Positions 8,882-45,512 of a DNA stretch of 50,601 nucleotides are shown here, piece after piece; within the stretch, counting starts at the first letter, position 1; each line of letters begins with the position of its first letter. The position numbers and the translations under genes are program-made. Below the pieces are notes generated by a model. That model was not told the DNA's origin, made no database searches, and worked only from the letters and a program-made list of their open reading frames with translations. Source of the DNA: Actinotignum schaalii. GTDB taxonomy: Bacteria; Actinomycetota; Actinomycetes; Actinomycetales; Actinomycetaceae. The stretch lies in contig NZ_JARBHJ010000013.1 in NCBI RefSeq assembly GCF_028864145.1, forward strand, positions 1 through 50,601, in the 5' to 3' direction.

Positions 8882-8887
8882 TACCAT
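8882..8887 (+). promoter_or_regulatory. Candidate -10 box (leaderless type)
   Basis: TACCAT, then the 6 nt GGGTGC, then ATG 8894. It fits the TANNNT-N6-start pattern seen at nine other genes here. It competes with a Shine-Dalgarno-led GTG at 8924. Confidence 0.45.
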
Positions 8888-8893
8888 GGGTGC

Positions 8894-9766
8894 ATGACCC
8901 TTTCTGCTTTCTGGAGGAATCAAGTGCGCCTGGGCGTTGCCGCACTGGCCGGATTCGCCGCGGCCCGCGCAGCCGAGAAGCTGCTCGCCCGGCGCGCCGC
9001 GCCCGCCTGGCAGCGTACTGCTAAGGACCGGCGTACTGTGAGTTTGCGGGAAGGCCCGGTTGCGGTAGCAGGCACGGTTACCGGAGGCGCGGTGGGTGCT
9101 CTACTCTCCGGAGGCACGAGCTCGGCTGGTTCGGTGATCGCGGCGCTCAGCGGAGGACTGGCCGGTTATATTGACGATTTTTACGAAGGTGCATTTTCAC
9201 GTACCTCCAAAGGGCTACGCGGCCACCTCGGTGCACTTTCCCGGGGCCATCTGACCTCCGGGGCTCTGAAAATAGTCATTATTGGGGCCGGTGCGGCCCT
9301 GGCCTCATGCGTCCCGGTTACTGTGGACGGCTCTCGTAGTAGTGGTTCTTGCGCGCGGCAGCTCGCGCTGCGCGGCGAACGCACCATTCTCATCGCTGCT
9401 ACCGCGAATCTTATTAATCTCCTTGACCTCGCGCCGGGCCGGGCCTGGAAAGGAACGCTCATAGCCGCGGCTCCCTTCTCCCTGGTCAGCTACCCGCCGG
9501 CAGGTCCCATTGCCGCGGCTCTCGTGGGTACTGGCACAGCCTGCCTGCCTGAGGACCTCGCGGGTAGGGTCATGCTCGGCGATACCGGGGCAAATGCGCT
9601 GGGAGCGGCACTGGGCTGGACGCTCGCCAGCCGTGGTCCTTGGGTGCGGCGCGGGGCGCTGGGCATCGTCGTCGCCCTGAATATCGCGAGCGAAAAAATA
9701 TCATTTTCGCGGGTTATCGCAACCCACCCGTGGCTGCGCGCTCTCGACCAGGCAGGCCGGGCATGA
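8894..9766 (+). CDS. MraY/WecA-like integral membrane glycosyl-phosphotransferase homolog
   Basis: Looks like a divergent member of the polyprenyl-phosphate sugar-1-phosphate transferase (MraY/WecA, GT4) family. GGLAGYIDDFYE carries the paired Asp motif, ANLINLLDL resembles the NxxNxxD loop, and MLGDTGANALGAALGW matches the GDxGS/LG motif. Several hydrophobic segments are present. At 290 residues it is shorter than MraY (~350). It ends in ATGA overlap with murJ, so a lipid-linked envelope precursor role is suggested by context. Two starts compete: ATG 8894 sits 6 nt after a TACCAT hexamer (leaderless pattern); GTG 8924 has GGAGG at 8913-8917 with 6-nt spacing. Substrate and activity are unknown. 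Confidence 0.72.
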   Translation: MTLSAFWRNQVRLGVAALAGFAAARAAEKLLARRAAPAWQRTAKDRRTVSLREGPVAVAGTVTGGAVGALLSGGTSSAGSVIAALSGGLAGYIDDFYEGAFSRTSKGLRGHLGALSRGHLTSGALKIVIIGAGAALASCVPVTVDGSRSSGSCARQLALRGERTILIAATANLINLLDLAPGRAWKGTLIAAAPFSLVSYPPAGPIAAALVGTGTACLPEDLAGRVMLGDTGANALGAALGWTLASRGPWVRRGALGIVVALNIASEKISFSRVIATHPWLRALDQAGRA

Positions 9767-11403
9767 AAAAAGTTCTTGGAACTGCACTTGGAGCAGCCGG
9801 AACCATAGCGATTCTTACCCTGCTCTCGCGTGCCATGGGCTTCGTGCGGGCCTGGGTGCAAAATGGGGCGTTGGGAGATTCCCTCGCCGGGGAGGCGTAT
9901 TCGACGGCGAATACCGTCCCTAATGTGCTTTTTGAAATCGCGGCCGGCGGTGCCTTGGCTGCCGCGGTCATCCCGTTGGTCTCCGGATTCCTAGCGAAGG
10001 CACTGGCCGCGGAAGTATCCCGCACTGCCTCGGCCTTGTTCACTTGGGTACTTGCCATCGGAATTCCGGTTGCGGGGATTGTTACCCTGGGTGCCCGGCC
10101 GATTATGGACGTGCTCCTGGGGGAGGGCTCGCCGGCAGCCAGCGTGGATTTCGCCGCCACCCTCCTCCGGATTTTCGCCTGGCAAATCCCCCTCTACGGA
10201 TTGTCGGTGGTGTGCACGGGACTTTTGCAGGCGCATAAAAAATTTGTGCTTCCCGCTCTCGCCCCACTGCTCTCGTCGGTCACGGTTATTATTACTTTCG
10301 TTATTTTCACGCAGCTCGCCGGGGGTAATCAGCACGATCCGGCACGGATTTCTCGGGCGGCCCTCTATGTGCTGGCCTGGGGAACCACGGCGGGGGTCGC
10401 GGTCTTCTCCCTACCCCAGCTTATCCCGGTGCTACGCCGCATCAGCTTGCGACCTACATTCCGTTTCCCGCCGGGGGTAGGGCGCCGTGCGCTACGGTTA
10501 AGCGCGGCGGGGCTGGCCGGCCTGCTCGCTCAACAGATCCAAATCATCGCGGTCATGCTTTTTGCCAATGCCCGCGGTGATGTGGGAACCTACCCGATTT
10601 TCACTTTCGCGAACCAGCTCTATATGGTGCCCTACGCCGTGCTGGCTGTTCCGATCGCCACCGCGGTTTTCCCACGCCTCGCAGAAGCCGCCGCGATCCC
10701 CGGGCGCCCGGGTCTGGCTCGGATCACCGCTCGCTCTTCCCGTCTCGTTTTTGATATTGGACTGCTCTGCGTGGCACTGCTGGTGGCGGTTGCAGAGCCT
10801 GCCCAGGCACTCTTCGCGGTGGCGCGTCCGGTGGCTCATATGGATATTGCCATGTTGGCTATGGCGCCCGCACTCCTCGGCTATGCCTTTATTTACCATG
10901 GGTCGCGGGTTCTCTACGCAGTGGAGGCAGCTCGTGCGGTTATTATTGTCAATTCGGCGGCGTGGCTGATGGTCGTTGTGGTTCTTATCGGGGCGGCGGG
11001 CCTGGGGGTGCACGGACGCACCGAAGTGCTCATCAGCATCGGTGTGGCGATGTCCACGGGAATGACCGTTGGAGGTATTGGCCATATCTTCGCGATCCGG
11101 CGCGCGGTAGGCCCCGGGGCGCTGCGCGGTGTCGGTTACTCCCTGCGGATCGTGCTGCCTGCCGCTGTAGTAGCTGGCACGGTCGGATATACCAGCGGGC
11201 GCGGGATACTACGCTGGTGGGGGGAAGGCGCCCTGGGTGCCCTGGGAGCAACTGCCGTGGCCGGTGCACTCACCCTCGCGATCGGGGGAGTGGCGCTCTA
11301 CTTCGTTGACCGACGGGCGCTGCGGCTGGCGCGTGACGCGGAGGCGCCGTCGACCCAAGAAATGCCCGCTATTGCCGTGGCTTTCGACGAAGCGAATGCA
11401 TAA
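9763..11403 (+). CDS. murJ: MurJ/MviN-family lipid II flippase
   Basis: Polytopic membrane protein of the MOP superfamily that flips lipid II for peptidoglycan synthesis. The sequence shows 13-14 hydrophobic segments and family features: an N-terminal LLSRAMGFVR helix, NTVPNVLFEIAAGGALAAAVIPL near residue 50, and NQLYMVPYAVLAVPIATAVFPRLAEAA in the middle. The product is 546 aa, normal for the core flippase, without the long cytoplasmic pseudokinase extension of mycobacterial MviN. The ATG at 9763 overlaps the upstream TGA. Confidence 0.92.
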   Translation: MKKVLGTALGAAGTIAILTLLSRAMGFVRAWVQNGALGDSLAGEAYSTANTVPNVLFEIAAGGALAAAVIPLVSGFLAKALAAEVSRTASALFTWVLAIGIPVAGIVTLGARPIMDVLLGEGSPAASVDFAATLLRIFAWQIPLYGLSVVCTGLLQAHKKFVLPALAPLLSSVTVIITFVIFTQLAGGNQHDPARISRAALYVLAWGTTAGVAVFSLPQLIPVLRRISLRPTFRFPPGVGRRALRLSAAGLAGLLAQQIQIIAVMLFANARGDVGTYPIFTFANQLYMVPYAVLAVPIATAVFPRLAEAAAIPGRPGLARITARSSRLVFDIGLLCVALLVAVAEPAQALFAVARPVAHMDIAMLAMAPALLGYAFIYHGSRVLYAVEAARAVIIVNSAAWLMVVVVLIGAAGLGVHGRTEVLISIGVAMSTGMTVGGIGHIFAIRRAVGPGALRGVGYSLRIVLPAAVVAGTVGYTSGRGILRWWGEGALGALGATAVAGALTLAIGGVALYFVDRRALRLARDAEAPSTQEMPAIAVAFDEANA

Positions 11404-11451
11404 AACTTGGTCTGCGGCCTGCACGCCCGCGCAGGTGGGAAAGGAAATTTT

Positions 11452-12042
11452 ATGTACAACGGTCTGAGTGATGAGTACTGCCCCGAGCATATGCGGCTCC
11501 TGGAGCGGCGCAACGTGCTCACGTCTCCGTTCATTAACGTGTACGAGGATACGGTGGAACTGCCCAGCGTAGGAGCGCGAATGGATCGTTACTGGGTGGA
11601 GCACCGCGATGCGGTGGCCGTGCTTGCGGTACGGGGCAGTGGCGACGGCGCACCTGAGGAAGTACTGCTTATCCGGCAGTATCGGATTCCGGTTCGCTCG
11701 CTCCTGTGGGAAATTCCGGCTGGCATCCTCGATATAGAGGGTGAGGATCCGATGGAGGCCGCTCGCCGGGAACTGCGCGAAGAAACCGATTATGCCGCCG
11801 GGGAACTGGAGTTTCTTACCCGTTTCTACACCTCGCCCGGTTTCACTAACGAGCAGCTCACGGTCTATCTCACTCGTAATCCCGAGCCAGCCGCGGCAGC
11901 TTTTGCTCGCGAGGATGAAGAGGCCGAAATTGAGGTGCGGTGGGTGCCGCTAGCCCTGGTGCGGGAGGCAATTATGACCGGGCGAGTTGCTAATCCGCAA
12001 CTGGTGGCAGCGGTACTTGCTTACCTGGCGCGTAGCTCTTAA
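11452..12042 (+). CDS. Nudix hydrolase, ADP-ribose pyrophosphatase type
   Basis: Nudix hydrolase resembling ADP-ribose diphosphatases (Rv1700 type), which cleave ADP-ribose to AMP and ribose-5-phosphate. The Nudix box is in AARRELREETDY, with the E-X7-REL-X-EE core intact, an upstream Gly in PAGILD one residue further away than canonical, and Asp where the terminal Gly is usual. The downstream TRFYTSPGFTNEQLTVYL segment is typical of ADP-ribose pyrophosphatases. The ATG at 11452 is chosen over an upstream GTG because GGAAAGGA lies about 6 nt before it. 196 aa. The gene closes the steA-murJ block. Confidence 0.88.
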   Translation: MYNGLSDEYCPEHMRLLERRNVLTSPFINVYEDTVELPSVGARMDRYWVEHRDAVAVLAVRGSGDGAPEEVLLIRQYRIPVRSLLWEIPAGILDIEGEDPMEAARRELREETDYAAGELEFLTRFYTSPGFTNEQLTVYLTRNPEPAAAAFAREDEEAEIEVRWVPLALVREAIMTGRVANPQLVAAVLAYLARSS

Positions 12043-12373
12043 CGACTAGGAGGGTCCGGGCCGATCGCTGTTGCGGTTCAACGGCTGTTTAACAGCGGTT
12101 CTACGGCGGTTCTGCACCGCTCTTAGCCACGAGCGTAACTCGTGTGGGCGTGTGGACCCGCGCCGGTAACAACGGTCCTTTTTCCGTCCGGTTAGGCTGT
12201 CCAAACTAGATTACGCAACGTTGGTGTTGTTTAATTGGGAGGCGAGGTCCTAGATATGGTCGACCACCGCGTGGTAAGTGGCGGTGCTCAATTCGAAAGA
12301 ACCTGCGGTCGTGGTCCGGGCGCGCATACGTGCTTGGCGAGGATGTAGAACTGTAACGGGGGTGGTGTTCCAA
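12043..12373 (+). promoter_or_regulatory. Gene-free region upstream of sufR with phased repeats and palindromes
   Basis: No convincing ORF. It holds three GCGGTTC heptamers (12073-12079, 12095-12101, 12106-12112; starts 22 and 11 bp apart, on one DNA face), a GCTGTT-T-AACAGC palindrome (12084-12096), and a CACGAG-N5-CTCGTG palindrome (12128-12144). A TAGATT hexamer at 12207-12212 is a possible -10. It most likely holds the suf operon promoter and operator; which element SufR binds cannot be told from sequence alone. Confidence 0.55.
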
Positions 12374-13063
12374 GTGTCCGAAGATGAAGGCGCAAAGATC
12401 CGCCCCCGTGAAGAAACAACCCGCGAAGGTATTCTGCGTCTCATTATGGAACGCGGACCCATTAGCGCCACGGAACTTGCCCGCTTAGCTATCCTTACTC
12501 CAGCTGGGGTGCGGCGCCATCTTGTGGCGCTCGAAGATGCGGGTGCTATTACCGAATGTGAGAAACCCGGGCAGCGTGAGGCGCGGGCCGGGCGGCCAGC
12601 ACGCTACTACGTGGCAACGGATGCCGGGCAGAATGCCGGGGCAACCTCTTATCACACCATGGCGAATGCAGCTCTTGATTTTCTGCGTGAAAATCTGGGG
12701 GAGGCCGGAGTGGCGGAATTTGCGCGCCGCCGCGAGCGTGCTTTGGTCGCTCGTTACCGCGATGTGCTTGGGGATACGGAAAATTCGGTGGAACGGTTGC
12801 GCCGTCTGGCGCGAGCCCTCACCCAAGATGGTTATGCCGCTTCGGTTCGCGATGTTCCGGGTACCCAGGATGGGCCGCGGCAGATGATCCAGTTGTGTCA
12901 GGGGCGCTGCCCCCTGCGCGACGTCGCCACACAGAATAACTTTTTATGCGCGGCGGAAACCCGCGCTTTTCACGAACTACTCGGGGTTCCCGTGCAGCGG
13001 TTGGCAACCATTGCATCGGGGAGTCACGTGTGCACGGTGACGCTGCACGCTAACAGCGTTTAA
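12374..13063 (+). CDS. sufR: SufR, Fe-S-cluster-containing repressor of the suf operon
   Basis: DeoR/ArsR-like winged-helix regulator of SUF Fe-S assembly. The helix-turn-helix is in residues about 15-65 (GILRLIMERGPISATELA..., TPAGVRRHLVALEDAG). The C-terminal part has the cluster-ligand cysteines with spacing C-X12-C-X27-C (GRC, FLC, HVC), the spacing I recall for mycobacterial SufR (Rv1460), plus one extra Cys just upstream (QLCQGRC). The start is uncertain: GTG 12374 gives MSEDEGAK and a normal length (229 aa); GTGs at 12362 and 12365 and a far one at 12278 are in frame. It sits directly before sufB and probably represses its own operon when the cluster is bound. Confidence 0.9.
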   Translation: MSEDEGAKIRPREETTREGILRLIMERGPISATELARLAILTPAGVRRHLVALEDAGAITECEKPGQREARAGRPARYYVATDAGQNAGATSYHTMANAALDFLRENLGEAGVAEFARRRERALVARYRDVLGDTENSVERLRRLARALTQDGYAASVRDVPGTQDGPRQMIQLCQGRCPLRDVATQNNFLCAAETRAFHELLGVPVQRLATIASGSHVCTVTLHANSV

Positions 13064-13078
13064 ATCGGGAGGAAACAC

Positions 13079-18088: not shown

Positions 18089-18092
18089 GTAC

Positions 18093-19213: not shown

Positions 19214-20107
19214 TTAGCGCCAGGTATTGCAGGCATAGAAATCGCCTGTTTCATAGCCGGTTGTCAGTGCATCCATCCGCTGGGCAGATGACCCATGGGA
19301 GAATTTTTCCGGGCTGACATCCATCCCGGCGCTTTCTTGGATATGGTCATCGCCGATCGCTGCCGCGGCATCAATCGCGCTGGCGAGCTGCTCACGGGTG
19401 GGGGCCTTGAGAATCGGGATCCCGCTGGCCGGATCCACCGTACTTGCAGCGTGATGCAGCCAGAGGCCAGCGAAGCAATCAGCTTGCAACTCCGAGCGTA
19501 CCTGCGAAGAATCAGGGCCGGTATCACGCGGATTAATACGTTCGAATACCCCGGTGAGATTTTGGATATGATGCCCGAATTCGTGGGCTACCACATAGGC
19601 CTGTACCAGGGTGGTGTTCTCTGCCCCAAAATTAGCTTCTAGCTCGTCAAAAAAGGTGGTGTCGAGGTAGACGGTTGCATCGGCGGGGCAGTAGAAGGGA
19701 CCCACCTGACTGGAGGCATTCCCACATCCGGTGCTCACTCCCTCGGAAAAGAGCGCGAATCCGGGAAGTTCATAAGCGGTGCGCGCCGCGCGGGGTAGTT
19801 CCTTGTCCCAAAACGCATCGAGGGATTGAGCTATCGCCACCATAAAGCACTCGGTGGAGGCATTGGCATCCGCCCCGGTACGGCACTTGTCCGCAAAATC
19901 GGAGGTGGTGGATTGCTGTGCGGAGCTGCCCTGAGGGGAGGCGCCCTGGGTAATGGTCGCCGGCGGGGGAGTGCCGGTTACGATGTACCACACCAGGGCA
20001 ATAATGATGCCGGTCACGCCCATGCCGCCGCCAACCATGGCACCGCGTCCGCGGCCGCGATTTTGTACTCTCGCCCCGTCGAGGCGCACGCCGTCGTTAA
20101 CACTCAT
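19214..20107 (-). CDS. Neutral zinc metallopeptidase (YpfJ/KPN_02809 family)
   Basis: Membrane-anchored putative zinc peptidase. The HExxH-type motif is VVAHEFGHHIQNLTG near residue 170, and the downstream ELQADCFAGLW region supplies the third ligand. The N-terminus is short and cytoplasmic (DGARVQNRGRGRGAMVGGG), then one transmembrane helix (GVTGIIIALVWYIVTG, about 29-46). 297 aa, typical. Substrate unknown. The ATG at 20107 is exactly 6 nt after a TAGGCT hexamer on the minus strand, so it may be leaderless. Confidence 0.9.
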   Translation of the reverse strand: MSVNDGVRLDGARVQNRGRGRGAMVGGGMGVTGIIIALVWYIVTGTPPPATITQGASPQGSSAQQSTTSDFADKCRTGADANASTECFMVAIAQSLDAFWDKELPRAARTAYELPGFALFSEGVSTGCGNASSQVGPFYCPADATVYLDTTFFDELEANFGAENTTLVQAYVVAHEFGHHIQNLTGVFERINPRDTGPDSSQVRSELQADCFAGLWLHHAASTVDPASGIPILKAPTREQLASAIDAAAAIGDDHIQESAGMDVSPEKFSHGSSAQRMDALTTGYETGDFYACNTWR

Positions 20108-20113: not shown

Positions 20114-20119
20114 AGCCTA
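20114..20119 (-). promoter_or_regulatory. Candidate -10 box of the zinc peptidase gene
   Basis: TAGGCT on the minus strand, 6 nt (CGAAGC) before ATG 20107. Confidence 0.5.
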
Positions 20120-20622: not shown

Positions 20623-22236
20623 GTGATTACGGCTTCTGATCTCACGATCCGCATCGGCACGCGTGAACTTGTCCAGCACGCCAGTTTTCAGGTCCACAAG
20701 GGTATGCGCGTGGGCCTCGTGGGGCGCAATGGCGCCGGCAAAACCACGATGACTCGCCTGCTGGCGGGTGAGGGCACCACGTCGGATGCCGTTGACTACG
20801 AAGGAACCCTGCACCGCAGCGGTACCATCGCCTACCTCCCGCAAGATACCCATGATGGGGACCCGAACCAGATAGCTCGGGATCGTATCCTGGAAGCCCG
20901 CGGAATTGACGCCACGATTCGCCGGATTCGCAAAGCGGAAAAGGATATGGCGGAATGTACCGGAACGCGCCAGCAAAAAGCTATGGAACGCTACGTGCGC
21001 CTGGATCAGGAGTTCACCGCGGCTGGGGGCTGGGCTGCGAATGCGCAGGCCTCTCAGATGGCTGCCGCGCTGGGCTTGGATGAGCGGATTCTCAACCAAC
21101 CGCTGGGGACACTTTCAGGTGGGCAGCGCCGGCGCGTTGATTTGGCACGGGTGCTCTTTTCCCAGGCAGATACGCTGCTTTTAGATGAACCGACCAATCA
21201 CCTCGACCATGATTCTCTGCTGTGGCTGCGCGATTACCTCTCCACATATTCGGGTGGCTTTGTGGTGATTTCCCACTCGGTGGATTTGCTAGAAGAAACG
21301 GTGACGGCGGTGTGGCATTTGGATGCCAACCGTGCGGCTCTTGACCAGTACGCGATGGGTTGGTCGGCCTATCTCAAACAGCGCGAAACCGATGAACGCC
21401 GACGCCGGCAGATGCGTGCCAATGCCGAAAAGAAAGCGGATCAGCTACTGGCGCAGGCTAATAAGATGCGCGCGAAGGCCACGAAGGCGGTGGCCGCCCA
21501 AAATATGGCGAAACGCGCGGAGAAGCTGCTTGAGGGGCTGGAAGAAGAACGCTCGGATGATAAGGTCGCAGCGCTGCGTTTCCCGGAGCCGGCCCCCTGC
21601 GGAAAAACACCGTTGCGGGCCCGCGGCCTGTCGAAATCCTACGGTTCGCTGGAGGTTTTCACCGGTGTTGATCTGGCAATTGATCGCGGTTCGCGCGTCG
21701 TCGTTCTGGGCCTCAACGGCGCGGGTAAAACTACACTTTTGCGTTTACTGTACGGAACGGAAACTCCGGATACCGGCGAAATAATCCCGGGGCACGGTCT
21801 CAAGCTGGGCTATTACGCACAGGAACACGATTTTATCGATACCGATAAAACTGTGGTGGATAATTTGCGCTATGTCGCCCCCGAGTTCGATGAAACAGGC
21901 TTACGTACCGTTCTCGGTTCGTTTTTGTTTTCGGGCGACGACGCCGATAAGCCCGCACGTGTCCTTTCGGGCGGTGAAAAGACCCGTTTAGCGCTGGCCA
22001 TGCTGGTCGTCTCGCGCGCCAACGTGCTGTTGCTGGACGAACCGACGAATAATCTTGACCCGGCATCTCGAGAGAAAATCCTGGGTGCCCTGGGTAAATA
22101 TGAGGGAGCCGTCGTGCTGGTCACGCACGACGAAGGTGCCGTGACCGCACTTGATCCCGAGCGGGTGCTTCTCCTCCCAGACGGGGATGAAGACTTGTGG
22201 AGCGACGACTATCTGGAGTTGGTCTCCCTCGCCTAG
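20623..22236 (+). CDS. ABC-F family ATPase (translation factor type)
   Basis: Two ABC domains in one soluble chain, no membrane segments. First domain: Walker A GRNGAGKTT (about residues 34-42), signature LSGGQRRRVDLARVLF, Walker B TLLLDEPTNHLD. Second domain: GLNGAGKTT, LSGGEKTRLALAMLV, VLLLDEPTNNLD. A Lys/Arg/Ala-rich helical linker (about 245-310, QRETDERRRRQMRANAEKKADQ-like) joins them. ABC-F proteins act on ribosomes (EttA-like roles or antibiotic protection); the subgroup cannot be set from sequence alone. 537 aa. Confidence 0.93.
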   Translation: MITASDLTIRIGTRELVQHASFQVHKGMRVGLVGRNGAGKTTMTRLLAGEGTTSDAVDYEGTLHRSGTIAYLPQDTHDGDPNQIARDRILEARGIDATIRRIRKAEKDMAECTGTRQQKAMERYVRLDQEFTAAGGWAANAQASQMAAALGLDERILNQPLGTLSGGQRRRVDLARVLFSQADTLLLDEPTNHLDHDSLLWLRDYLSTYSGGFVVISHSVDLLEETVTAVWHLDANRAALDQYAMGWSAYLKQRETDERRRRQMRANAEKKADQLLAQANKMRAKATKAVAAQNMAKRAEKLLEGLEEERSDDKVAALRFPEPAPCGKTPLRARGLSKSYGSLEVFTGVDLAIDRGSRVVVLGLNGAGKTTLLRLLYGTETPDTGEIIPGHGLKLGYYAQEHDFIDTDKTVVDNLRYVAPEFDETGLRTVLGSFLFSGDDADKPARVLSGGEKTRLALAMLVVSRANVLLLDEPTNNLDPASREKILGALGKYEGAVVLVTHDEGAVTALDPERVLLLPDGDEDLWSDDYLELVSLA

Positions 22237-22378: not shown

Positions 22379-23629
22379 TTAGCGGCGCACCACCGCATTC
22401 TTGGGAACCACAACCACGCCGCCTTCGGAAACATAGAAACCGCGTTCGCGATCATAATCGTGATTGACACCCAGCTGCGCGCCTTCTTCGATCTGGACGT
22501 TCTTATCCACGATGGCGCGGATAACGGTGGCATTGCGGCCAACGTTCACCCCGTCCAGCAGCACCGATTCGCGCACCGAGGACCAGGAATTCACCCGCAC
22601 CCCGGGGGAGAGTACCGATCCGATCACTTCGCCACCGGAGACGATCACCCCGGGGGAAACGATGGAATCCAGGGCGTGTCCGAGACGTTCGTGATGCCCG
22701 TACACGAATTTTGCGGGCGGTAACCCGGTGTAGCCGGTCAGGATGGGCCAGCGCTCGTTGTACAGGTTGAAATCCGGGGTAACTGAAATAAGATCCATAT
22801 TTGCCGCGTAGTAGGCATCAATGGTACCCACATCACGCCAGTAGTCCTTATCGCGTTCACCCTCACCGGGGATGCGGTTGTAGGTGAAATCGTAGACACC
22901 GCAATTACCGGCTTCCACGAACCTCGGAACAATGCTTCCGCCCATATCATGGGCGGAACTGGGATCCGCGGCGTCATTCTGGAGAGCCTCAACCAGCGCG
23001 TCAGTATTGAAAATGTAGTTCCCCATGGACGCCAGGAACTGGTCCGGAGCTTCTTCCAGACCTAGACCGGTAGTATCCTGCGGTTTTTCTAGGAACCGGG
23101 AAACCTTTTGGTGGTTTTTCTCATCCACATCGATAACACCGAAGGAGGGTGCCAGTTCCAGCGGCTGGCGGATACCGGCGATGGTTAGGTCAAAACCGGA
23201 TTCCACGTGCTGGTCCATCATCTGGGAAAAGTCCATGCGGTAGATATTGTCGGCACCGGTCACGAGCACAACATCGGGCCGTTCATCATCGATGACGTTC
23301 ATGGACTGATAGATGGCATCCGCACTTCCGGAGAACCAGCCCTTGCCGCGCCGCTGCTGGGCGGGAACCGGGGCCACATAATTGCCCAAGAGGTTGGACA
23401 TACGCCAGGTTCTTGTAATGTGGCGGTCCAGCGAATGTGACTTGTACTGGGTAAGCACGATGATCTGGAGGTATCCAGAATTCACGATGTTACTCAACGC
23501 AAAGTCGATCAACCGGTAAATGCCCCCGAAAGGAACCGCGGGTTTCGCTCGATCTTCAGTGAGCGGCATTAGACGCTTGCCTTCGCCTCCCGCAAGGACG
23601 ATGGCCAGAACGCGTAAATCTCTCCTCAT
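22379..23629 (-). CDS. glgC: Glucose-1-phosphate adenylyltransferase
   Basis: Makes ADP-glucose for glycogen and maltosyl-glucan synthesis. The N-terminal nucleotide motif is [26 protein letters not shown]-like (residues ~7-32), followed by [14 protein letters not shown], the glucose-1-P region SGSADAIYQ and a C-terminal left-handed beta-helix. ATG 23629 gives 416 aa and the expected [11 protein letters not shown] start; the frame is open further upstream but that part is not family-like. TACGCT lies 6 nt upstream of the ATG, so the mRNA may be leaderless. It is divergent from glgA, as in mycobacteria. Confidence 0.95.
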
Positions 23630-23635: not shown

Positions 23636-23641
23636 AGCGTA
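23636..23641 (-). promoter_or_regulatory. Candidate -10 box of glgC
   Basis: TACGCT on the minus strand, 6 nt (GTAGGC) before ATG 23629. Confidence 0.5.
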
Positions 23642-25076: not shown

Positions 25077-25099
25077 CTCGACCTGTCGCAGCAGCACGC

Positions 25100-25105
25100 T
25101 ATTCT
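25100..25105 (+). promoter_or_regulatory. Candidate -10 box of the ABC ATPase gene
   Basis: TATTCT, 6 nt (AGAACC) before ATG 25112. No Shine-Dalgarno is seen. Confidence 0.55.
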
Positions 25106-25111: not shown

Positions 25112-25897
25112 ATGGGTGACGTGCTGTCGTTGAAAGATGTAACGCTACGCCGCGGGGCCACGGAAATTCTCCGCTCGGTATCCTGGGATGTTAATTCCGG
25201 GGAACGCTGGGTGATTTTCGGGCCGAATGGTGCCGGGAAAACCACGCTTATACAGGTGGCTGCCGCGCGACTCTTCCCCAGTTCGGGAAGCGTAGAGCTC
25301 ATGGGCGAACGCCTCGGCACGGTGGACGTGCGGGAGCTGCGCAGCGCCGTGGGCGTAACCTCGGCCGGGATTGATGATCGTATTCCCGGTGGGGAAACGG
25401 TTTTCCAGGCGGTGCGCAGCGCTGCGTATGGGCACCTAGCCGCGTGGAATGAAGAGTACGACGCCGCAGATGACTCCCGCGCCCGTGCCATGTTGCGCCG
25501 GCTCGGTTTGCGTGACCTTGAGGAACGCAAGGTCACGCACCTATCCTCCGGGGAACGTAAGCGCTTAGGGATTGCGCGGGCCCTCATGCCCAATCCGGAA
25601 GTCCTCATTTTGGATGAACCAACCTCGGGCCTGGATCTGGGCGGGCGCGAACGCCTGCTGGCTACCCTGTCGCGGCTGGCCGGGGAAGTATACGCCCCGG
25701 CCATGCTTCTGGTCACCCACCACGTGGAGGAAATCCCGGTCGGATTTACCCATATGCTGCTTCTTAAAGCGGGCAATGTTGTGGCGGCCGGGCCGCTAGC
25801 GGAGGTTTTAACCTCCGCGCGCCTCTCGGATACTTTTGATTACCCGCTGCAGGTGGAGGAAAACGCGGGTCGGTATACCGCGCGCGCTGCCCGCTAA
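25112..25897 (+). CDS. Orphan ABC transporter-type ATP-binding protein
   Basis: Single ABC domain: Walker A GPNGAGKTT (about residues 36-44), signature LSSGERKRLGIARAL, Walker B VLILDEPTSGLDLGG, H-loop VTHHVEEIP. The sequence resembles ModF/iron-type ABC ATPases. No permease gene lies next to it, so its partner or role is unknown. 261 aa. Leaderless-type start. Confidence 0.88.
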   Translation: MGDVLSLKDVTLRRGATEILRSVSWDVNSGERWVIFGPNGAGKTTLIQVAAARLFPSSGSVELMGERLGTVDVRELRSAVGVTSAGIDDRIPGGETVFQAVRSAAYGHLAAWNEEYDAADDSRARAMLRRLGLRDLEERKVTHLSSGERKRLGIARALMPNPEVLILDEPTSGLDLGGRERLLATLSRLAGEVYAPAMLLVTHHVEEIPVGFTHMLLLKAGNVVAAGPLAEVLTSARLSDTFDYPLQVEENAGRYTARAAR

Positions 25898-29141: not shown

Positions 29142-29615
29142 TTAGGAAAATTGGGCGGCGCCGGGGTATCCGAGCTGACGCCAGGCTTCGTAAACGGCGA
29201 TGGATGCCGCATTAGCAAGATTAAGAGATCGTAGGTGGGGGAGCATTGGTATGCGCACCGCCGCGGTGATACGTTCGTGGGCGACGACGCGCGCGGGCAA
29301 GCCGGTTGGTTCCGGCCCGAAAAGGAGATAGTCGTTGGGCTGGTAGGAGACTTCGGCGAAGTTGTTTTGGGTGTGTCCGGTAAAAGCAAAGATGCGAGCA
29401 TCGGGTGCGCTGGTGAGAAACTCCTCAAAATTCGGGTGAATAACGAGGCTGGCGAGGTCGTGGTAGTCCAAGCCGGCGCGTTTGAGATGCGCGTCAGAGA
29501 AATCGAAACCGAGGGGCTCAATCAGGTGCAAGGTGGCGCCGGTGCACGCCGCTAGGCGAATGGCCGCGCCGGTATTACCAGGAATGCGCGGCTCGAAGAA
29601 AACAATATGAAGCAC
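29142..29615 (-). CDS. trmL: tRNA (cytidine/uridine-34)-2'-O-methyltransferase
   Basis: TrmL family SPOUT enzyme acting on the wobble base of tRNA-Leu. Motifs: FFEPRIPGNTGAAIRLAACTG (start), LLFGPEPTGLP and RIPMLPHLRSLNLANAASIAVYE (knot). 157 aa, full length. The GTG at 29615 lies exactly 6 nt after TACCCT on the minus strand. It is divergent from the mutasome cassette. Confidence 0.93.
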   Translation of the reverse strand: MLHIVFFEPRIPGNTGAAIRLAACTGATLHLIEPLGFDFSDAHLKRAGLDYHDLASLVIHPNFEEFLTSAPDARIFAFTGHTQNNFAEVSYQPNDYLLFGPEPTGLPARVVAHERITAAVRIPMLPHLRSLNLANAASIAVYEAWRQLGYPGAAQFS

Positions 29616-29621: not shown

Positions 29622-29627
29622 AGGGTA
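29622..29627 (-). promoter_or_regulatory. Candidate -10 box of trmL
   Basis: TACCCT on the minus strand, 6 nt (AGATGG) before GTG 29615. Confidence 0.5.
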
Positions 29628-29696
29628 CTAGCCTGAGAATTTCGCGCGCGATTTTTGTGTCGTATCCCTTCGGTAGAGTAAAGCCGTACCGTAAAA

Positions 29697-29712: not shown

Positions 29713-29731
29713 ATGTGTTGTGGGGGGTGCT

Positions 29732-37204: not shown

Positions 37205-37210
37205 AGTGTA
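37205..37210 (-). promoter_or_regulatory. Candidate -10 box of the GNAT-MazG gene
   Basis: TACACT on the minus strand, 6 nt (AAAGCC) before ATG 37198. Confidence 0.55.
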
Positions 37211-37332: not shown

Positions 37333-39357
37333 TTAGGCTTCCACCAGGCCGTGCCGCTTGAGCAGCGCGGTGGCATCCACGTCCCGCCCCAGGAGCGCCG
37401 CGAAGGACTCCTTCGGATCACGTGAATTACCCCGCGAGAGGACCTCGCGGCGCAACTTCTCGCCAGCCTCGCGATTGAGGCCCAGATCGCCCTCCCGCGC
37501 GGCGTCGTTCTGGAACCACGCCACCGTATCCGCATCCAGGGCTTCACACCAGGTGTAAGAGTAGTATCCGGCAGAATATCCACCGGAGAAAACATGGTTG
37601 AAGTAGGCGCTGCGGTACCGGGGCGGCACCAGCTCATGCTGGACACCCGTGGCCCGCAAAGCCTTCTCCTCGAAAGCTTCGAAGTCGGCGGGGCTTGCCG
37701 GGACTTCGGCTTCGCTGAGCCGATGCCATGCCTGATCGAGAAGCACCGCCTGCTCGATTTCGCACATGCGGAAGCCAGCACCGTAGCCGCGCGAGGCAAC
37801 GAGGGCCTCAGTTTGGGCGGCGGGAAGGACTTCCCCGGTCTGGTAGTGGCGAGCGTAGCGTGCGAGTACCTCCGGATGCCGGGCCCAAATCTCGTTGACC
37901 TGGGAGGGGTACTCCACAAAATCACGCGGAACATTCGTTCCGGCCACCGAGGGCCAGCGCACGTCGGAGAGGAAACCGTGCAAGGCGTGCCCGAATTCGT
38001 GGAAAGCAGTTTCCACTTCGTCCCAGCTCAGCAAGGTGGGCTCGCCGGGAGCCGGCTTGGTGATATTGAGGTTATTGCAGATAACCGAAGCGGGGGATCC
38101 CTCCGCGGATTTTTGCACGATGGCGTGCATCCACGCGCCCCCGCGCTTACCGGGCCGCGCATAGTAATCACCGAGGAAGTAGCCAAGGAAGGTGCCGTCT
38201 TCTTCAGCAACCTCCCACACGACCACGTCATCGGTGTACCCGTGCTCTTCGGTCCGGGTGAAGGTCAGCCCGTAGAGCTTATTCGCCGCGTAGAAAACAC
38301 CCTTTTCCAGCACGTTATCGAGTTCGAGGTACGGGGTGAGGGCCTCGTCATCAATGCTGAACTTTTCGGCGCGCGCCTGATTCTGGGCCCGCACCCAATC
38401 GCTGGCGGTGAAGGTGTCCTTACCCCAGCGTTCCTTGACGAAAGCGGCCAGCTCCTCAGCTTCGGCAGCAACGTTGCGGGCGATGGGCGCCATCATGGGG
38501 GAGAGAAGCGCATCGATGTTCTCGAGCGTCCCGGCCGAAGAATTCGCGGCCACGTAGGCGGCGTGGTTCGGGTAGCCGAGCAGCTTGGCGGCCCGAGCCC
38601 GCAGCCGCACCAGTTCCAAAATGGATTCGCGGGTATCGGTTGCCGCGTCGTGGCCGTCGCAGCGCCGCAGGGATGCCTCCAGGAGGCGAGCGCGAGCCGC
38701 GGCGTCGTCCAAATTATCCAGCAGCGGCTGCTGCGTGGGAAGACGCAGCGTGGCGAGATAGGCGGCCGAGCTATCAGCCGCGGCGGCCTCCCCGGCCAGC
38801 CCCTCCCGCTGGGAAGCGGAAAGGCCGCTGAGCTCGGCTTCGGTGAATTCCACTGCGTCATCCAGACCGGCCTGTACGATACGCTGACCGATCTCGGTAG
38901 AGAGTTCGGCCATGCGGTTATTGATAGCCGCCAGTTCGCCCCGCGCTGCCTCAGCGAGCCCGGCACCGGACTGCTGGCAGCGCTTGAGGTGTTCGCGGGC
39001 GGTATAGGCGGTTTCGGGATCCAGGTCCGCCTCGCATAGCTGTTCAAAACGCCGGTACAACCGCGGATCCATATAGAGCGCGTCCTCGTGCGCGGTCATC
39101 TTCGGGCTGAGCTCGGCCTCCACGCGATCCCAATCAGCCCCGCCAATCGAGGAACAATAGGTGTAGAAAATCGAAGCTTCCACCTCGAGCTGCGCTCCGG
39201 AGAGCTCAAAGGGGCGCAGGAAATTATCAACGGTTGGCGCATCCGTCACCTCGAGAAGAGAGGCGACGACGCCGCGCTGGTGCTCCATCAAATCAAGGAC
39301 CGTGGCAAGTTGGGATGCCGGGGTCACATGCGAAAAATCAGGTAAGAGAGTACTCAT
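37333..39357 (-). CDS. M3-family zinc metallopeptidase (oligopeptidase, Dcp/PrlC-like)
   Basis: Cytosolic thimet-type oligopeptidase. The zinc site is AFHEFGHALHGFL (HExxH) near residue 460, with the downstream Glu in FVEYPSQVNEIWARHPEVL. The C-terminal FSGGYSAGYYSYTWCEALDAD segment is the family's substrate-binding Tyr region. 674 aa is typical for Dcp. ATG 39357 (MSTLLPDFSH) is preferred over the open frame to 39432, whose extra part is Cys/Arg-rich. TACCGT lies 7 nt upstream, with no Shine-Dalgarno, so a leaderless start is possible. Confidence 0.93.
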   Translation of the reverse strand: MSTLLPDFSHVTPASQLATVLDLMEHQRGVVASLLEVTDAPTVDNFLRPFELSGAQLEVEASIFYTYCSSIGGADWDRVEAELSPKMTAHEDALYMDPRLYRRFEQLCEADLDPETAYTAREHLKRCQQSGAGLAEAARGELAAINNRMAELSTEIGQRIVQAGLDDAVEFTEAELSGLSASQREGLAGEAAAADSSAAYLATLRLPTQQPLLDNLDDAAARARLLEASLRRCDGHDAATDTRESILELVRLRARAAKLLGYPNHAAYVAANSSAGTLENIDALLSPMMAPIARNVAAEAEELAAFVKERWGKDTFTASDWVRAQNQARAEKFSIDDEALTPYLELDNVLEKGVFYAANKLYGLTFTRTEEHGYTDDVVVWEVAEEDGTFLGYFLGDYYARPGKRGGAWMHAIVQKSAEGSPASVICNNLNITKPAPGEPTLLSWDEVETAFHEFGHALHGFLSDVRWPSVAGTNVPRDFVEYPSQVNEIWARHPEVLARYARHYQTGEVLPAAQTEALVASRGYGAGFRMCEIEQAVLLDQAWHRLSEAEVPASPADFEAFEEKALRATGVQHELVPPRYRSAYFNHVFSGGYSAGYYSYTWCEALDADTVAWFQNDAAREGDLGLNREAGEKLRREVLSRGNSRDPKESFAALLGRDVDATALLKRHGLVEA

Positions 39358-39505: not shown

Positions 39506-39546
39506 CTTCTCTGTTGCTCAGCACGGCGTGCTGAATGGCAATCACC

Positions 39547-39631: not shown

Positions 39632-39638
39632 CGGTGAG

Positions 39639-39671: not shown

Positions 39672-39750
39672 CGCATGGCTGGGGTTCCCCGGCCCGGCCT
39701 GGGGAGAGGCTCGGCGCCGAAGAAGTTAGCGAATCGCGTGCCTTTCGGGG

Positions 39751-39756
39751 TATTCT
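39751..39756 (+). promoter_or_regulatory. Candidate -10 box of the Asp-rich protein gene
   Basis: TATTCT, 6 nt (AGGGCC) before ATG 39763. Confidence 0.5.
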
Positions 39757-39762
39757 AGGGCC

Positions 39763-40140
39763 ATGGCTACGAATCCGCGCGCTGCGCTTGACCGTCTCAT
39801 CGGTGCTTTCGAGGATTTCCACCAGGCGGCTACTACCGCTGATGACCCGGAAGCTCCGGCGGTGCTGGAAGCCGCCGATAAGCTGGCGGATGCTTACACC
39901 ATTTACGATGACGTCATCTTCACGAATTTTGATGTCGAAACACCGCTGGATGTCTTCGATAGCGATAGCGAAGATTTTTACGAGGATGACGATTCAGAGG
40001 ATTACCTCTACGACACCGATGATTACGACGATCTGGACGACGATGATGACGATTCAGACGATGATTACGATGACGATGATGAGGATTACCCCGGTCTCGA
40101 TGACGAAGAAGACGACGACGCCCCCGCATCCCGTTCCTAA
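39763..40140 (+). CDS. Small protein with helical N-terminus and Asp/Glu-rich tail
   Basis: Function unknown. Residues 1-50 form an ordinary helical domain (ALDRLIGAFEDFHQAATT, APAVLEAADKLADAYTIYDDVIFT). Residues ~65-120 are almost only Asp, Glu, Tyr and Ser, with runs of consecutive Asp, giving an extremely acidic disordered tail. Proteins of this design can mimic nucleic acid or bind basic proteins or metal ions, but nothing here shows which. 125 aa. Its stop codon interlocks with that of the convergent aldo/keto reductase-like gene (CTAA). Leaderless-type start. Confidence 0.8.
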   Translation: MATNPRAALDRLIGAFEDFHQAATTADDPEAPAVLEAADKLADAYTIYDDVIFTNFDVETPLDVFDSDSEDFYEDDDSEDYLYDTDDYDDLDDDDDDSDDDYDDDDEDYPGLDDEEDDDAPASRS

Positions 40141-41093: not shown

Positions 41094-41099
41094 AGCTCC

Positions 41100-41105
41100 A
41101 CTCTA
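41100..41105 (-). promoter_or_regulatory. Candidate -10 box of the aldo/keto reductase-like gene
   Basis: TAGAGT on the minus strand, 6 nt (GGAGCT) before ATG 41093. The spacer also resembles a Shine-Dalgarno but is too close to the ATG to be typical. Confidence 0.5.
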
Positions 41106-41154
41106 AACCACTGTGTCAGCCGGACACCTCACCGCGCGCGCACGCCCCGCCCGC

Positions 41155-41160
41155 TATGCT
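41155..41160 (+). promoter_or_regulatory. Candidate -10 box of uppP
   Basis: TATGCT, 8 nt before GTG 41169. No ribosome site lies between them. Confidence 0.45.
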
Positions 41161-41168
41161 TAGGCCCC

Positions 41169-41990: not shown

Positions 41991-42113
41991 CGACGACGCC
42001 GCGATGGCTCGCCTTGCACCGGTGTTCTCTGAGAGCTAGCGGCGTACTGGGTAAACTGTGCTTGAGTTCCTCACGCGGAGGACTCGCGACGTAGGAGACT
42101 AACGGATAACCAG

Positions 42114-43397
42114 ATGGAGACTTGGACACGCCCGGAGGTACCACCACTGGGATTCACCCCGGACCTCAACCTTTACGATTCCGATAATGAGGAAATCTGC
42201 CGGGTAGAAACTCGGCAACCTACCCTCTATACCTGCGGTATCACACCCTACGATGCCACTCACCTGGGGCACGCTTTTACCTATGTGAGCGCCGATACCT
42301 TGGTGCGGTACTGGATGGCGGCTGGCCTTCCGGTTCGCTACGCCCAAAACATTACGGATATTGACGATCCGCTTTTCGAACGCGCCGAGCAAACGCGGGT
42401 GGATTGGCGCGAACTTGCCAATTCTCAAATAGCGCTTTTCCGTTCCGATATGGATGCGCTGCGAGTTGTCCCGCCCGGGAACTGGGTTGCGGTGTCCGAG
42501 GTGCTGGACGAGGTGGAGGCGGTCGTCCGCGATTTTGAAGCTCGCGGTCTCACGTACCGACTTCCCAATGGGGATGGCTCGGAAGATATCTATGTTGATC
42601 TCACCCGCGATCCGAGTTTTGCCGCCGCGCCGGTATTTGAGTATTTGGATCTCGAGCAGATTTTTGACGAGCACGGTGGCGACTCAACTCGCCCCGGCAA
42701 ACGCCGCACCCTGGACCCGCTGGTGTGGAAGGGTGTGCGTGGCAATGACTTCCGGCCCGCGGGGGAGAAGCCCGGGTTCTGGCGGCCGGGCTGGCATGTG
42801 GAATGCGCGCTGATAGCCCGTACCTACCTGGGGGAACATATCACCGTGCAGGCCGGCGGGCGTGATCTGCTGTTCCCGCACCATGAAATGAGTGAGAGTC
42901 ATCTGCGGGAGATGACCGATGATCGCGGCCGGGTAGATATCCACTTCCACGTGGGCATGGTGGCCTACCAGGGCGAAAAAATGTCCAAGTCGCTGGGCAA
43001 TCTGGTTCGAGTTTCAGAGCTGACCGCGGCAGGTGCGCACCCGAGTGCTATTCGCCTGGTTCTTTTGGCCAATCATTACCGCTCCGATTGGGAATACGAG
43101 GCGAGTGCGCTCCGGCGTGCCGAAGCCCGCCTGGAATGCTGGCAGCAGGCAGCCCGCAGTGCGCTTGCAAAGCCCGCGGCCGCTGCGAGCGCATCCGAAA
43201 CTTCCGCTGCGCCAGGCACAACACCCGCGGAGTTAGCTCCAACGTGCCGGGCACTTATTGACGCTATTTCCGATGATCTGGATACTCCGCAGGCACTGCG
43301 CATCCTGGATGACTGGGCGGCAGCCGGGGCACCTGATACGGAACAGGTGGCCCGCGCCGTTGATGCACTCCTGGGGATTCGGCTTCTTACCCACTAA
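42114..43397 (+). CDS. mshC: MshC, cysteine:1D-myo-inosityl-GlcN ligase (mycothiol synthesis)
   Basis: Class I cysteinyl-tRNA-synthetase paralogue that ligates Cys to GlcN-Ins in mycothiol synthesis. LYTCGITPYDATHLGHAFTYV carries the zinc Cys and HIGH-like motif (near residue 40), WHVECALIAR and FPHHEMSESH complete the zinc site, and GEKMSKSLGNLV is the KMSKS loop. MshC is favoured over CysS by the short C-terminal part without an anticodon-binding domain and by the uppP neighbourhood. An Ala/Pro-rich insert (about residues 350-375) lies before the last helices. TAAACT (42052-42057) may be the -10. 427 aa. Confidence 0.92.
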   Translation: METWTRPEVPPLGFTPDLNLYDSDNEEICRVETRQPTLYTCGITPYDATHLGHAFTYVSADTLVRYWMAAGLPVRYAQNITDIDDPLFERAEQTRVDWRELANSQIALFRSDMDALRVVPPGNWVAVSEVLDEVEAVVRDFEARGLTYRLPNGDGSEDIYVDLTRDPSFAAAPVFEYLDLEQIFDEHGGDSTRPGKRRTLDPLVWKGVRGNDFRPAGEKPGFWRPGWHVECALIARTYLGEHITVQAGGRDLLFPHHEMSESHLREMTDDRGRVDIHFHVGMVAYQGEKMSKSLGNLVRVSELTAAGAHPSAIRLVLLANHYRSDWEYEASALRRAEARLECWQQAARSALAKPAAAASASETSAAPGTTPAELAPTCRALIDAISDDLDTPQALRILDDWAAAGAPDTEQVARAVDALLGIRLLTH

Positions 43398-43422
43398 CCG
43401 CAGAACAGGGGCCAGGTGTTCG

Positions 43423-43462
43423 AGGCACCACACCTGAGGCAGATGGCTCAGGTGTGGTGCCT
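43423..43462. terminator. Long hairpin between convergent mshC and RecB-family genes
   Basis: A perfect 16-bp stem: AGGCACCACACCTGAG (43423-43438) with CTCAGGTGTGGTGCCT (43447-43462), 8-nt loop. No T run. Likely a bidirectional terminator. Confidence 0.78.
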
Positions 43463-43510
43463 GAGGGCGGGCCTGGTGCCCGAGGGCAGCACGGGCGATG
43501 CGGCACGGCG

Positions 43511-44332
43511 TTAACTATGTGCAGTGCGCATCTGCTCCACCCCCTCACTGCTGAGCTGCGGGGGAGTACCGCCGAAGGCCGGGCAGATCTGCTGGAAATA
43601 GCACCAATCGCACAGCCGGGAGGTACGCGGTTCGAATTCCCCCGAATCCAGGCGTGCGGCGATGGCCCGCCAGGTTTCCTCTAAATCCATGGCAATGCGC
43701 CGGGTATCTTCCGGGAGCGGATCATAGGTGAGGGTGCGTCCATCTTTGAGGTAGACAAGTTGGGTGCGAGCCGGGCGCTGCCCTTCCGTCAGCTCTAAAA
43801 GCAGCGCATAAAAGCGCATCTGGTACAGCGCTTCGTTCTGGTAGCGCGGGTGTGGTGACTTCCCCGTTTTGTAGTCAACCACGCGCAAGGCTCCATCGGG
43901 TGCCGCGTCAATTCGATCCACGATTCCGCGCAGCGCTAAACCGGACGGCAGGCGGGCATTGATGAACTTCTCCCGATCCCGCGGCGCCAAAAAACGCGGA
44001 TTCTCCATATGGAAATAGTTACTAATAAGAGCGCGGGCCTGCTCCAGCCATTGCGAGAGTGCATCCGCGGATTCGAAAAGATCGGCATCCTGAGGGGACT
44101 TTTCCAGGTGGGCTTCCCAGCGCGGCAGCAGGAGGGACTGGGCATATTCCTCGGTGCGTTCGTGCTGCGGTGCGGCGTACAGGTACTCCAAAACAGAATG
44201 CACGAGAGTGCCGCGTAGCGCGGCGAGGGAAGGCGCTTCGGGAAGGTGATCGACGCTCCGGAAACGGAAGAGTAGCGGGCACTGCTTGAAATCTTTGGCA
44301 CGTGATGGTGATAGTGCGGCGTGACGAGTCAT
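43511..44332 (-). CDS. RecB-family PD-(D/E)XK exonuclease with Fe-S-type cysteines
   Basis: Nuclease domain of the RecB/AddB family. Active-site motifs: Asp in GIVDRIDAAPDG and DYKTGK (VVDYKTGKSP). One Cys near the N-terminus (FKQCPLLFRFR) and three near the C-terminus (LCDWCYFQQICPAF) match the four-Cys [4Fe-4S] clamp of AddB-like nucleases. 273 aa, stand-alone. The ATG at 44332 lies 6 nt after TAAAGT and has no Shine-Dalgarno. It shares its promoter region with trmI; see that entry for a DNA-damage-type motif. Confidence 0.9.
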   Translation of the reverse strand: MTRHAALSPSRAKDFKQCPLLFRFRSVDHLPEAPSLAALRGTLVHSVLEYLYAAPQHERTEEYAQSLLLPRWEAHLEKSPQDADLFESADALSQWLEQARALISNYFHMENPRFLAPRDREKFINARLPSGLALRGIVDRIDAAPDGALRVVDYKTGKSPHPRYQNEALYQMRFYALLLELTEGQRPARTQLVYLKDGRTLTYDPLPEDTRRIAMDLEETWRAIAARLDSGEFEPRTSRLCDWCYFQQICPAFGGTPPQLSSEGVEQMRTAHS

Positions 44333-44338
44333 GATTCC

Positions 44339-44390
44339 ACTTTAACAACTCGCTGCGACAGAAAAATCTGTCGCACGGACAAACTACACT
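44339..44390. promoter_or_regulatory. Divergent recB-like/trmI promoters with shared palindrome
   Basis: The minus-strand -10 is TAAAGT (44344-44339), 6 nt before ATG 44332; the plus-strand -10 is TACACT (44385-44390), 6 nt before ATG 44397. Between them is a 9-bp perfect inverted repeat: TGCGACAGA (44354-44362), AAAA, TCTGTCGCA (44367-44375). Each arm places CTGTCGCAC or CTGTCGCAG exactly 8 nt upstream of its own -10. This is the layout of the PafBC/RecA-independent promoter (TTGTCRGTG-N8-TANNNT), with only the TGTCR core matching. Confidence 0.65.
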
Positions 44391-44396
44391 GGAGGA

Positions 44397-45512
44397 ATGA
44401 CACTACGACGAGGCCCCTTCCGCCCCGGTGAACGCGTGCAACTCACCGATCCTAAAGGGCGGCATTACACCATCAACCTCACGGTTGATGGCTATTTCCA
44501 GTCCACGCGCGGTTCCTTCCGCCACAGCGAACTTATTGGACAAGAGGAAGGCAGCCTCATCACCACCCAGGAGGGCCGCGAATTCCTTGCGCTGCGCCCG
44601 CTCCTGAGCGATTACGTGCTCTCCATGCCCCGCGGTGCCACCATTGTGTACCCGAAAGATGCGGCGCAAATCATCCACGCCGCGGATATCTATCCGGGTG
44701 CGCGAGTTTTTGAAGCCGGGGTGGGCTCCGGCGCGCTCTCCATTTCGCTGCTCCAGGCGGTCGGCACCGAAGGTTTTCTTCTGAGCGCGGAACGCCGCCC
44801 GGAATTCGCGGAGATAGCGCAGGCCAATCTGGTGTCCTGGTGGGGGAAGCACCCGGATAACTGGCGGGTGGAATGCGGGGAGGCCGCTGATATTTTGGCT
44901 GCTCACCCGGCAGGTTTTGATCGCGTTATCCTCGATATGCTCGCTCCCTGGGAAATCATTCCGGCGGCCGCGCAGGCTCTGGTGCCCGGCGGGGTTTTCC
45001 TCGCCTACGTTGCAACGACGACGCAGCTCTCCCGCTGCGCCGAAGATCTCAAAGCCACCGGACTTTTCACCGGCCCCGAGGCCAGTGAAACTCTGGTGCG
45101 TACCTGGCACTTAGAGGGACTCGCGGTGCGTCCCGATCACCGGATGGTCGCGCATACCGGCTTCCTCATTTTGGCGCGTCGGCTAGCCGGGCCCACCCGG
45201 CTAACTCCGGCATCCCGCCCGGCCAAGGGCGCCTACGCCGAACCTATGCCCTGGGAAAATAGCGCAGCTGCACCACTTCAAGAACGCCCGATTGCAGAAA
45301 AGAAACTGCGTAAAGTCCGCCGTGACCTGGCACACCGAGCCGACGTAGAAGAAAGCGGGGTATCTACCCCGGGGGAACATTCTCGCAAGATAGCTGAGAA
45401 AATCGCGGCGGAAATCGCCGTCCGCGAAGCCGAAAAACAGCGGCAAGCAGAGGAACTCCGGCACGCGGAAACACAAGGGCAGGTGGAGGAATCCCGCCAG
45501 GTAGAGGACTAG
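44397..45512 (+). CDS. trmI: tRNA (adenine-58-N1)-methyltransferase TrmI
   Basis: Makes m1A58 in the T loop of tRNA. N-terminal beta domain RRGPFRPGERVQLTDPKGRHYTI, then a Rossmann domain with motif I VFEAGVGSGALSISLLQAVG (near residue 102), AERRPEFAEIAQANL and FDRVILDMLAPW. Residues ~280-371 are a charged Glu/Arg/Gln-rich helical extension not found in the compact enzyme. GGAGGA abuts the ATG with no spacing while TACACT lies 6 nt upstream, so the mRNA is probably leaderless and the GGAGGA accidental. Confidence 0.94.
   Translation: MTLRRGPFRPGERVQLTDPKGRHYTINLTVDGYFQSTRGSFRHSELIGQEEGSLITTQEGREFLALRPLLSDYVLSMPRGATIVYPKDAAQIIHAADIYPGARVFEAGVGSGALSISLLQAVGTEGFLLSAERRPEFAEIAQANLVSWWGKHPDNWRVECGEAADILAAHPAGFDRVILDMLAPWEIIPAAAQALVPGGVFLAYVATTTQLSRCAEDLKATGLFTGPEASETLVRTWHLEGLAVRPDHRMVAHTGFLILARRLAGPTRLTPASRPAKGAYAEPMPWENSAAAPLQERPIAEKKLRKVRRDLAHRADVEESGVSTPGEHSRKIAEKIAAEIAVREAEKQRQAEELRHAETQGQVEESRQVED

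Follow-up and report, generated by a model that had tools for sequence, protein, structure and literature searches.

A probable leaderless gene arrangement behind TANNNT boxes in Actinotignum, and a PafBC-type element upstream of part of the class

In the window, a stretch of 50,601 nucleotides (C4:1-50601) from an Actinotignum genome of 2.2 Mb in 77 contigs, ten start codons on both strands follow a TANNNT hexamer at a distance of exactly 6 nt. Do such pairs mark genes whose transcription begins on the start codon itself, and how far does the arrangement reach beyond this locus? On the plus strand, the hexamers at 8882..8887, 25100..25105, 39751..39756 and 44385..44390 stand before ATG codons at 8894, 25112 (ABC transporter ATPase), 39763 (a protein of 125 aa) and 44397 (TrmI-like methyltransferase). 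On the minus strand, those at 20114..20119, 23636..23641, 37205..37210, 41100..41105 and 44339..44344 stand before ATG codons at 20107 (Zn_peptidase), 23629 (glgC), 37198 (GNAT / PRA-PH protein), 41093 (aldo/keto reductase) and 44332 (a RecB-like PD-(D/E)XK nuclease), and the hexamer at 29622..29627 precedes a GTG at 29615 (SpoU methylase). Every one of the ten pairs of hexamer and start codon lies where the original prediction placed it, and so do its near variants, with spacings of 7 nt at 39357 and 8 nt at 20623 and 41169.

The start codons themselves differ in how well they are backed. A caller based on coding score agrees with seven of the ten and differs at 8894, 23629 and 44397. Begun at 23629, the glgC protein aligns to TIGR02091 from residue 7, and the SpoU methylase begun at GTG 29615 aligns to its Pfam family from residue 2. 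For the site at 8894, the case for a transcription-unit start is weak, since 15 nt separate it from the gene before it, and conservation is no test there because the upstream DNA is nearly unchanged in the three relatives found. The 125-aa protein (39763-40140) has no Pfam or NCBIfam match; it is also found in Actinotignum relatives and in the genome G012, with the leaderless arrangement there.

Counting the motif alone says little. TANNNT-N6-RTG occurs 19 times over the whole window (shuffle mean 18.63), and the genome-wide count of 354, vs 296 for the reversed motif, is uninformative. Since the motif is unenriched over the whole window, only its anchoring to gene starts counts. We therefore measured the distance from TANNNT to candidate ATG/GTG starts in a genome sample of 831,601 bases, made up of 40 stretches and the window. 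A self-trained hexamer model called 674 genes in this sample, 645 of them with an upstream neighbour in their own stretch; 635 of the 645 have a candidate ATG/GTG start and were split into 441 non-operon genes, with no same-strand gene ending 40 nt or less upstream, and 194 operonic genes. Starts were taken from our own gene caller together with a pick among the candidates. Picking one start among several raises the background, which was countered by comparing distances, with the mean over distances 12-47 as the reference.

In the window, 9 of 27 non-operon genes have a candidate ATG or GTG 6 nt after TANNNT, against a mean background of 0.61 (Poisson P 2e-8). The start at 25112, which is 35 nt behind a same-strand gene, was classed as operonic and so is outside the nine. 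Across the sample, the proposed count gave a sharp peak at 6 nt: 58 of the 441 non-operon genes have TANNNT exactly there, vs a mean of 9.6 and a maximum of 18 at distances 12-47, and the counts at 5, 7 and 8 nt are 1, 23 and 7. Just short of the peak, TANNNT falls below background in the sample (4 genes at 4 nt and 1 at 5 nt, vs the mean of 9.6). Among operonic genes, 8 of 194 have the hexamer at 6 nt (background 2.2). When starts were set by coding score alone, the peak persisted: of the 214 genes that have a divergent neighbour, 25 had the box at 6 nt and six at 7 nt, with 0-4 at each remaining distance from 0 to 39. The window is denser in 6-nt sites than the remaining sample (9/27 vs 49/414, P 0.004).

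The logo of the 58 sites reads TAgaCT-GG-A..C|RTG, and no TTGACA-like -35 box rose above shuffles upstream of them. Shine-Dalgarno-like sequences, scored as at least four of six matches to AGGAGG, precede 29% of the 6-nt genes, which is the background level (31% at a control position); as had been proposed, operon-internal genes are richer in them, at 73% by the same measure.

The distance is also conserved between species. In each of the close relatives G001, G004 and G005, TANNNT lies 6-7 nt before the start at ten of ten sites; the box of the Zn_peptidase gene is at 7 nt in three relatives. In the more distant relative G002, which matches A. urinale, the distance is kept at six of eight sites despite diverged flanks, for which the chance probability is about 2e-7. 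At the G002 relative of the 37198 gene, the box is absent and a GAGGAAAG stretch is in its place; at the position aligned to 44397, there is neither a start codon nor a box. The nuclease arrangement at 44332 is further kept in G006, G009, Flaviflexus and G017, while five other relatives have no start codon at the aligned position and hence were not judged. For the TrmI gene at 44397, close Actinotignum alone retain the arrangement; 13 more distant relatives have no start codon at the aligned position, and G014 has one that lacks a box.

Four observations together make it very probable that the ten sites, as a class, are promoters of leaderless mRNAs, a reading drawn from DNA sequence throughout: the distance is fixed, it is concentrated in first genes, Shine-Dalgarno sites are not enriched, and the distance is conserved between species. 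RNA polymerase would melt the TANNNT sequence as a -10 box, and transcription would begin 6-7 nt downstream of it, on the A or G of the start codon. Initiation on the start codon would therefore yield an mRNA with neither a 5´ leader nor a Shine-Dalgarno sequence, which would be translated by the leaderless route. A rather improbable alternative is that the hexamers are -10 boxes from which transcription begins a few nucleotides before the start codon, or that an upstream promoter produces the main, leadered mRNA. Boxes at 7 nt and 8 nt could indeed leave leaders of 1-2 nt, and the GAGGAAAG stretch that replaces the box of the 37198 gene in G002 is also in favour of this alternative; a peak at exactly 6 nt with a single gene at 5 nt, Shine-Dalgarno matches at background, and purines as the usual start base (PMC3898074) all speak against starts before the codon. 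That the ten sites are chance matches of a common motif picked by eye is hardly credible, even though shuffled sequence yields TANNNT-N6-RTG about as often as the window does and the window is richer in sites than its surroundings, given the positional peak in 831 kb and the G002 conservation amid diverged flanks; the peak rules out chance for the whole set, and single sites such as 8894 may be chance.

Widespread leaderless transcription is thus strongly supported by the positional peak, the background-level Shine-Dalgarno matches and the conserved box-to-start distance. The further proposal that leaderless mRNAs are the default for single genes went too far. Strict TANNNT boxes at 6-7 nt are in excess by 40 (19%) among the 212 genes that lie behind a divergent neighbour; adding NANNNT boxes with another first base brings the excess to about 67 of 212 (31%), and adding all one-mismatch boxes that show a positive excess brings it to about 34%. 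The best reading is that leaderless genes are a large minority of first genes, from about 19% with the strict box to about 31% with the relaxed one. For Mycobacterium tuberculosis, a leaderless share of 22-26% of genes with a primary start has been reported (PMC3898074). The M. tuberculosis transcriptome has in common with the Actinotignum sites the TANNNT box, the lack of a conserved -35 and a frequent C at -1; its leaderless share, roughly one quarter, was measured by 5´-end sequencing, whereas that of Actinotignum is inferred from sequence (PMC3898074). The comparison with mycobacteria made in the original prediction was correct and too narrow. In samples of 100-140 kb from eight other genomes of the order, with 46-77 first genes each, the 6-nt count exceeds every background distance in six, one of which (G013) is even higher at 8 nt; the excess is weak in G012 (1, 2 and 3 genes at 6, 7 and 8 nt) and G014 (4, equal to the background maximum).

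In Actinobacteria, leaderless genes that have TANNNT some 12 bp ahead of their start codons have been described since 2011 (PMC3160421), so the trait is already well known, and Actinotignum represents an extension of it. The main text of that paper names neither Actinomyces, Arcanobacterium nor Mobiluncus, and the terms 'DNA repair' and 'recA' are absent from it (PMC3160421). Among papers on Actinotignum promoters, judged by title, we found none on start sites. A practical consequence is that the arrangement helps to fix start codons in Actinotignum annotation.

The part of the analysis that we consider weightier was not foreseen. Upstream of the 58 boxes, G is found at -27 in 60% and at -24 in 50% of sites, and the most enriched tetramer is TGTC at -28 (9 observed, 0.15 expected). 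At 9 of the 58 sample sites and at three of the ten in the window, TGTCR precedes TANNNT at a spacing of exactly 11 nt. Unexpectedly, then, a share of the leaderless promoters carries an element that other actinobacteria use to activate DNA-repair genes. PafBC mediates a DNA-damage response that is independent of RecA. Its published motif is given as tTGTCRgtg-8 nt-TannnT (PMC5656591) or TGTCGG-10N-TA-3N-T (PMC8151990), and after binding single-stranded DNA, PafBC is reported to replace the -35 contact at a -26 motif (PMC11804915). The Actinotignum sites share with this PafBC / RecA-NDp promoter the TGTCR-11 nt-TANNNT arrangement, the presence of recA and repair genes downstream, and the -26 position of the motif (PMC5656591, PMC8151990, PMC11804915).

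Spacing sets these sites apart. Counted over spacings from 4 to 25 in the intergenic DNA sampled, TGTCR-TANNNT pairs peak at 22 for a spacing of 11 and number 2-8 at each of the rest, and coding DNA holds seven pairs at spacing 11. Genome-wide, TGTCR-N11-TANNNT is present at 64 sites, vs 39 reversed; 62 lie within the sampled stretches, and 44 of these are intergenic with a called gene downstream. A start follows at 6 or 7 nt after 22 of the 44. The leaderless distance is seen at 21 of 36 TGTCG sites and one of eight TGTCA sites, and the share at TGTCG sites exceeds that among genes with a divergent neighbour (50/212, P 8e-5). In a sample not selected by the motif, starts at 6-7 nt follow 11 of 17 sites with spacing 11, vs 3 of 28 with other spacings between 5 and 21 (P 0.0005). 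Not every site is of this kind: the plus-strand TGTCG-N11-TANNNT at 29658..29679 has its gene start 40 or 52 nt downstream, at 29720 or 29732, and that gene would hence have a leader. The window element on the plus strand at 25084..25088, a TGTCG 11 nt upstream of the box at 25100, is kept in G001, G004 and G005 and absent in G002.

The full composite, TGTCG-N11-TANNNT-N6-RTG, occurs 15 times in the host genome and not once reversed. Over 59 genomes of the order the count is 377, somewhat inflated by repeats, vs 35 reversed, 23 with the upstream spacing changed to 10 and 46 with the box placed 5 nt from the start. It exceeds the reversed control in 48 of the 59 genomes and shows no excess in 11; in 79 genomes of the class the totals are 527 vs 61, with 73 genomes above control. 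In G033, one identical TGTCG-N11-TANNNT-N6-ATG sequence is listed in five copies on contigs C1, C15, C16 and C17, as though a repeated gene family had carried a damage promoter along. In the smaller samples of the eight other genomes, G005 and G009 show the spacing-11 peak of TGTCR with 5 sites each, and the other six, with 0-2 sites, do not.

The genes downstream fit a damage response in part. From the 44 rows we removed one duplicate (window 43514-44332) and one 35-aa frame, leaving 42 genes, of which nine belong to repair, recombination or replication, vs 0-1 of 30 controls picked randomly out of the 42 leaderless genes that lack the TGTCR element; the enrichment is modest (P 0.038 if a control SNF2 helicase is counted, 0.008 otherwise). 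The nine include recA, radA, sbcD, uvrD and dnaX, together with an AdnA-like protein combining UvrD and PD-(D/E)XK, two RNase_T-type exonucleases and the PD-(D/E)XK nuclease of the window. Thymidylate synthase, NrdD, a phosphoribosyltransferase and SHMT are also among the 42. The other 33 are not repair genes, and this remainder includes tRNA ligases, peptidases, transporters and unknowns.

Does the host have the regulator? An operon-like gene pair at C33:70167-72394 is followed by a helicase gene. The first protein of the pair scores over the Pfam cut-off for a WYL domain and matches PafBC (PDB 6sj9) at 2.4e-7 in a profile search; on these matches, the host genome has a pafB-like gene. The second protein has no match of its own in Pfam or PDB, a profile search of PDB gave only E 0.11, and a PafB-PafC profile comparison was unsuccessful in establishing its identity. 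Its sole WYL support is an A. urinale relative, 34% identical, with a WYL domain over the cut-off; by its position and through this relative, it is a likely PafC candidate.

We think it likely that the TGTCG/TGTCA subset (9/58 in the sample, 3/10 in the window) is activated by PafBC, a view that leans on motif, spacing and gene content. Upon DNA damage, PafBC loaded with single-stranded DNA would engage the -26 element and sigma region 4, replacing the -35 box, and nuclease, repair and nucleotide genes would thereby be switched on as leaderless mRNAs. The element might instead be the site of another regulator or be read by an alternative sigma factor, which we regard as unlikely. PafC is poorly identified in the host genome; the motif continues as TGTCGTAG in Actinotignum and as TGTCRGTG in the published motif (PMC5656591); and in M. 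smegmatis, ClgR reportedly recognises the same P1 promoter (PMC5656591). Eight of the 11 genomes without motif excess have WYL hits (the four of family f6, and G022, G030, G063 and G064), and family f6 (G017, G035, G050, G065) has 2 motifs vs 7 reversed despite its WYL hits. A WYL hit need not be PafBC. Against another reader stand the spacing, which equals that of the published PafBC motif, recA and other repair genes downstream, the pafB-like gene, and the three genomes of the order without any WYL hit (G014, G046, G061), which show no motif excess (4 vs 10).

We put forward a broader proposal tentatively and hold it to be somewhat doubtful: across Actinomycetes, the PafBC DNA-damage promoter may be built preferentially onto leaderless genes as one composite unit, TGTCG-N11-TANNNT-N6-start, such that the damage response would select leaderless translation as well. 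If so, the leaderless route may remain open when ordinary initiation drops under stress. Half of the Actinotignum sites (22 of 44) lie at leaderless distance, a feature for which we found no statement on the PafBC promoter in PMC5656591, PMC8151990 and PMC11804915. In the literature we searched, we found no link between PafBC and leaderless genes, which is weak evidence of absence, since most subscription papers fell outside its scope. In M. tuberculosis, lexA is reported to be leaderless (PMC2897130), and for the RecA-NDp gene Rv1955, about 50 nt separate the mapped 5´ end from the start codon downstream of it (PMC2897130); this leader makes Rv1955 a case against any strict rule that PafBC genes are leaderless. 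Whether the damage response makes purposeful use of leaderless translation is a testable question, and the composite signature of promoter and start could predict DNA-damage regulons in bacteria in which they have never been tested.

In the window, the divergent nuclease (44332) and TrmI (44397) genes each have the leaderless arrangement. Between them, an inverted repeat at 44354..44375, TGCGACAG-AAAAAT-CTGTCGCA, holds in its arms two divergent TGTCG elements of the PafBC type at the -26 position, that of the nuclease gene at 44356..44360 on the minus strand and that of the TrmI side at 44369..44373 on the plus strand. Among Actinotignum relatives the nuclease element is absent in G002 and kept in the others, at spacing 11 in G001, G004 and G005; by eye, also at spacing 11, G006 has TGTCG and G017 has TGTCA. 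The TrmI-like protein of the window shares 99% identity with its Actinotignum sanguinis counterpart and 92% with those of A. schaalii and A. timonense. The TGTCG on its side is kept in A. sanguinis and G003 and missing in A. schaalii, A. timonense and G005, so that PafBC control of the proteasome operon, if real, would be lineage-specific. TrmI is likely the first gene of a TrmI-ARC-Dop-Pup-PafA operon, with the genes for the proteasome ATPase (ARC), Dop, Pup and PafA at 45607..50497 on the plus strand and the end of the window just past pafA. Unlike in the known PafBC system, the pafB-like gene of Actinotignum is not in an operon with pafA; in the relative G004, it lies about 95 kb from the TrmI / Pup-proteasome locus.
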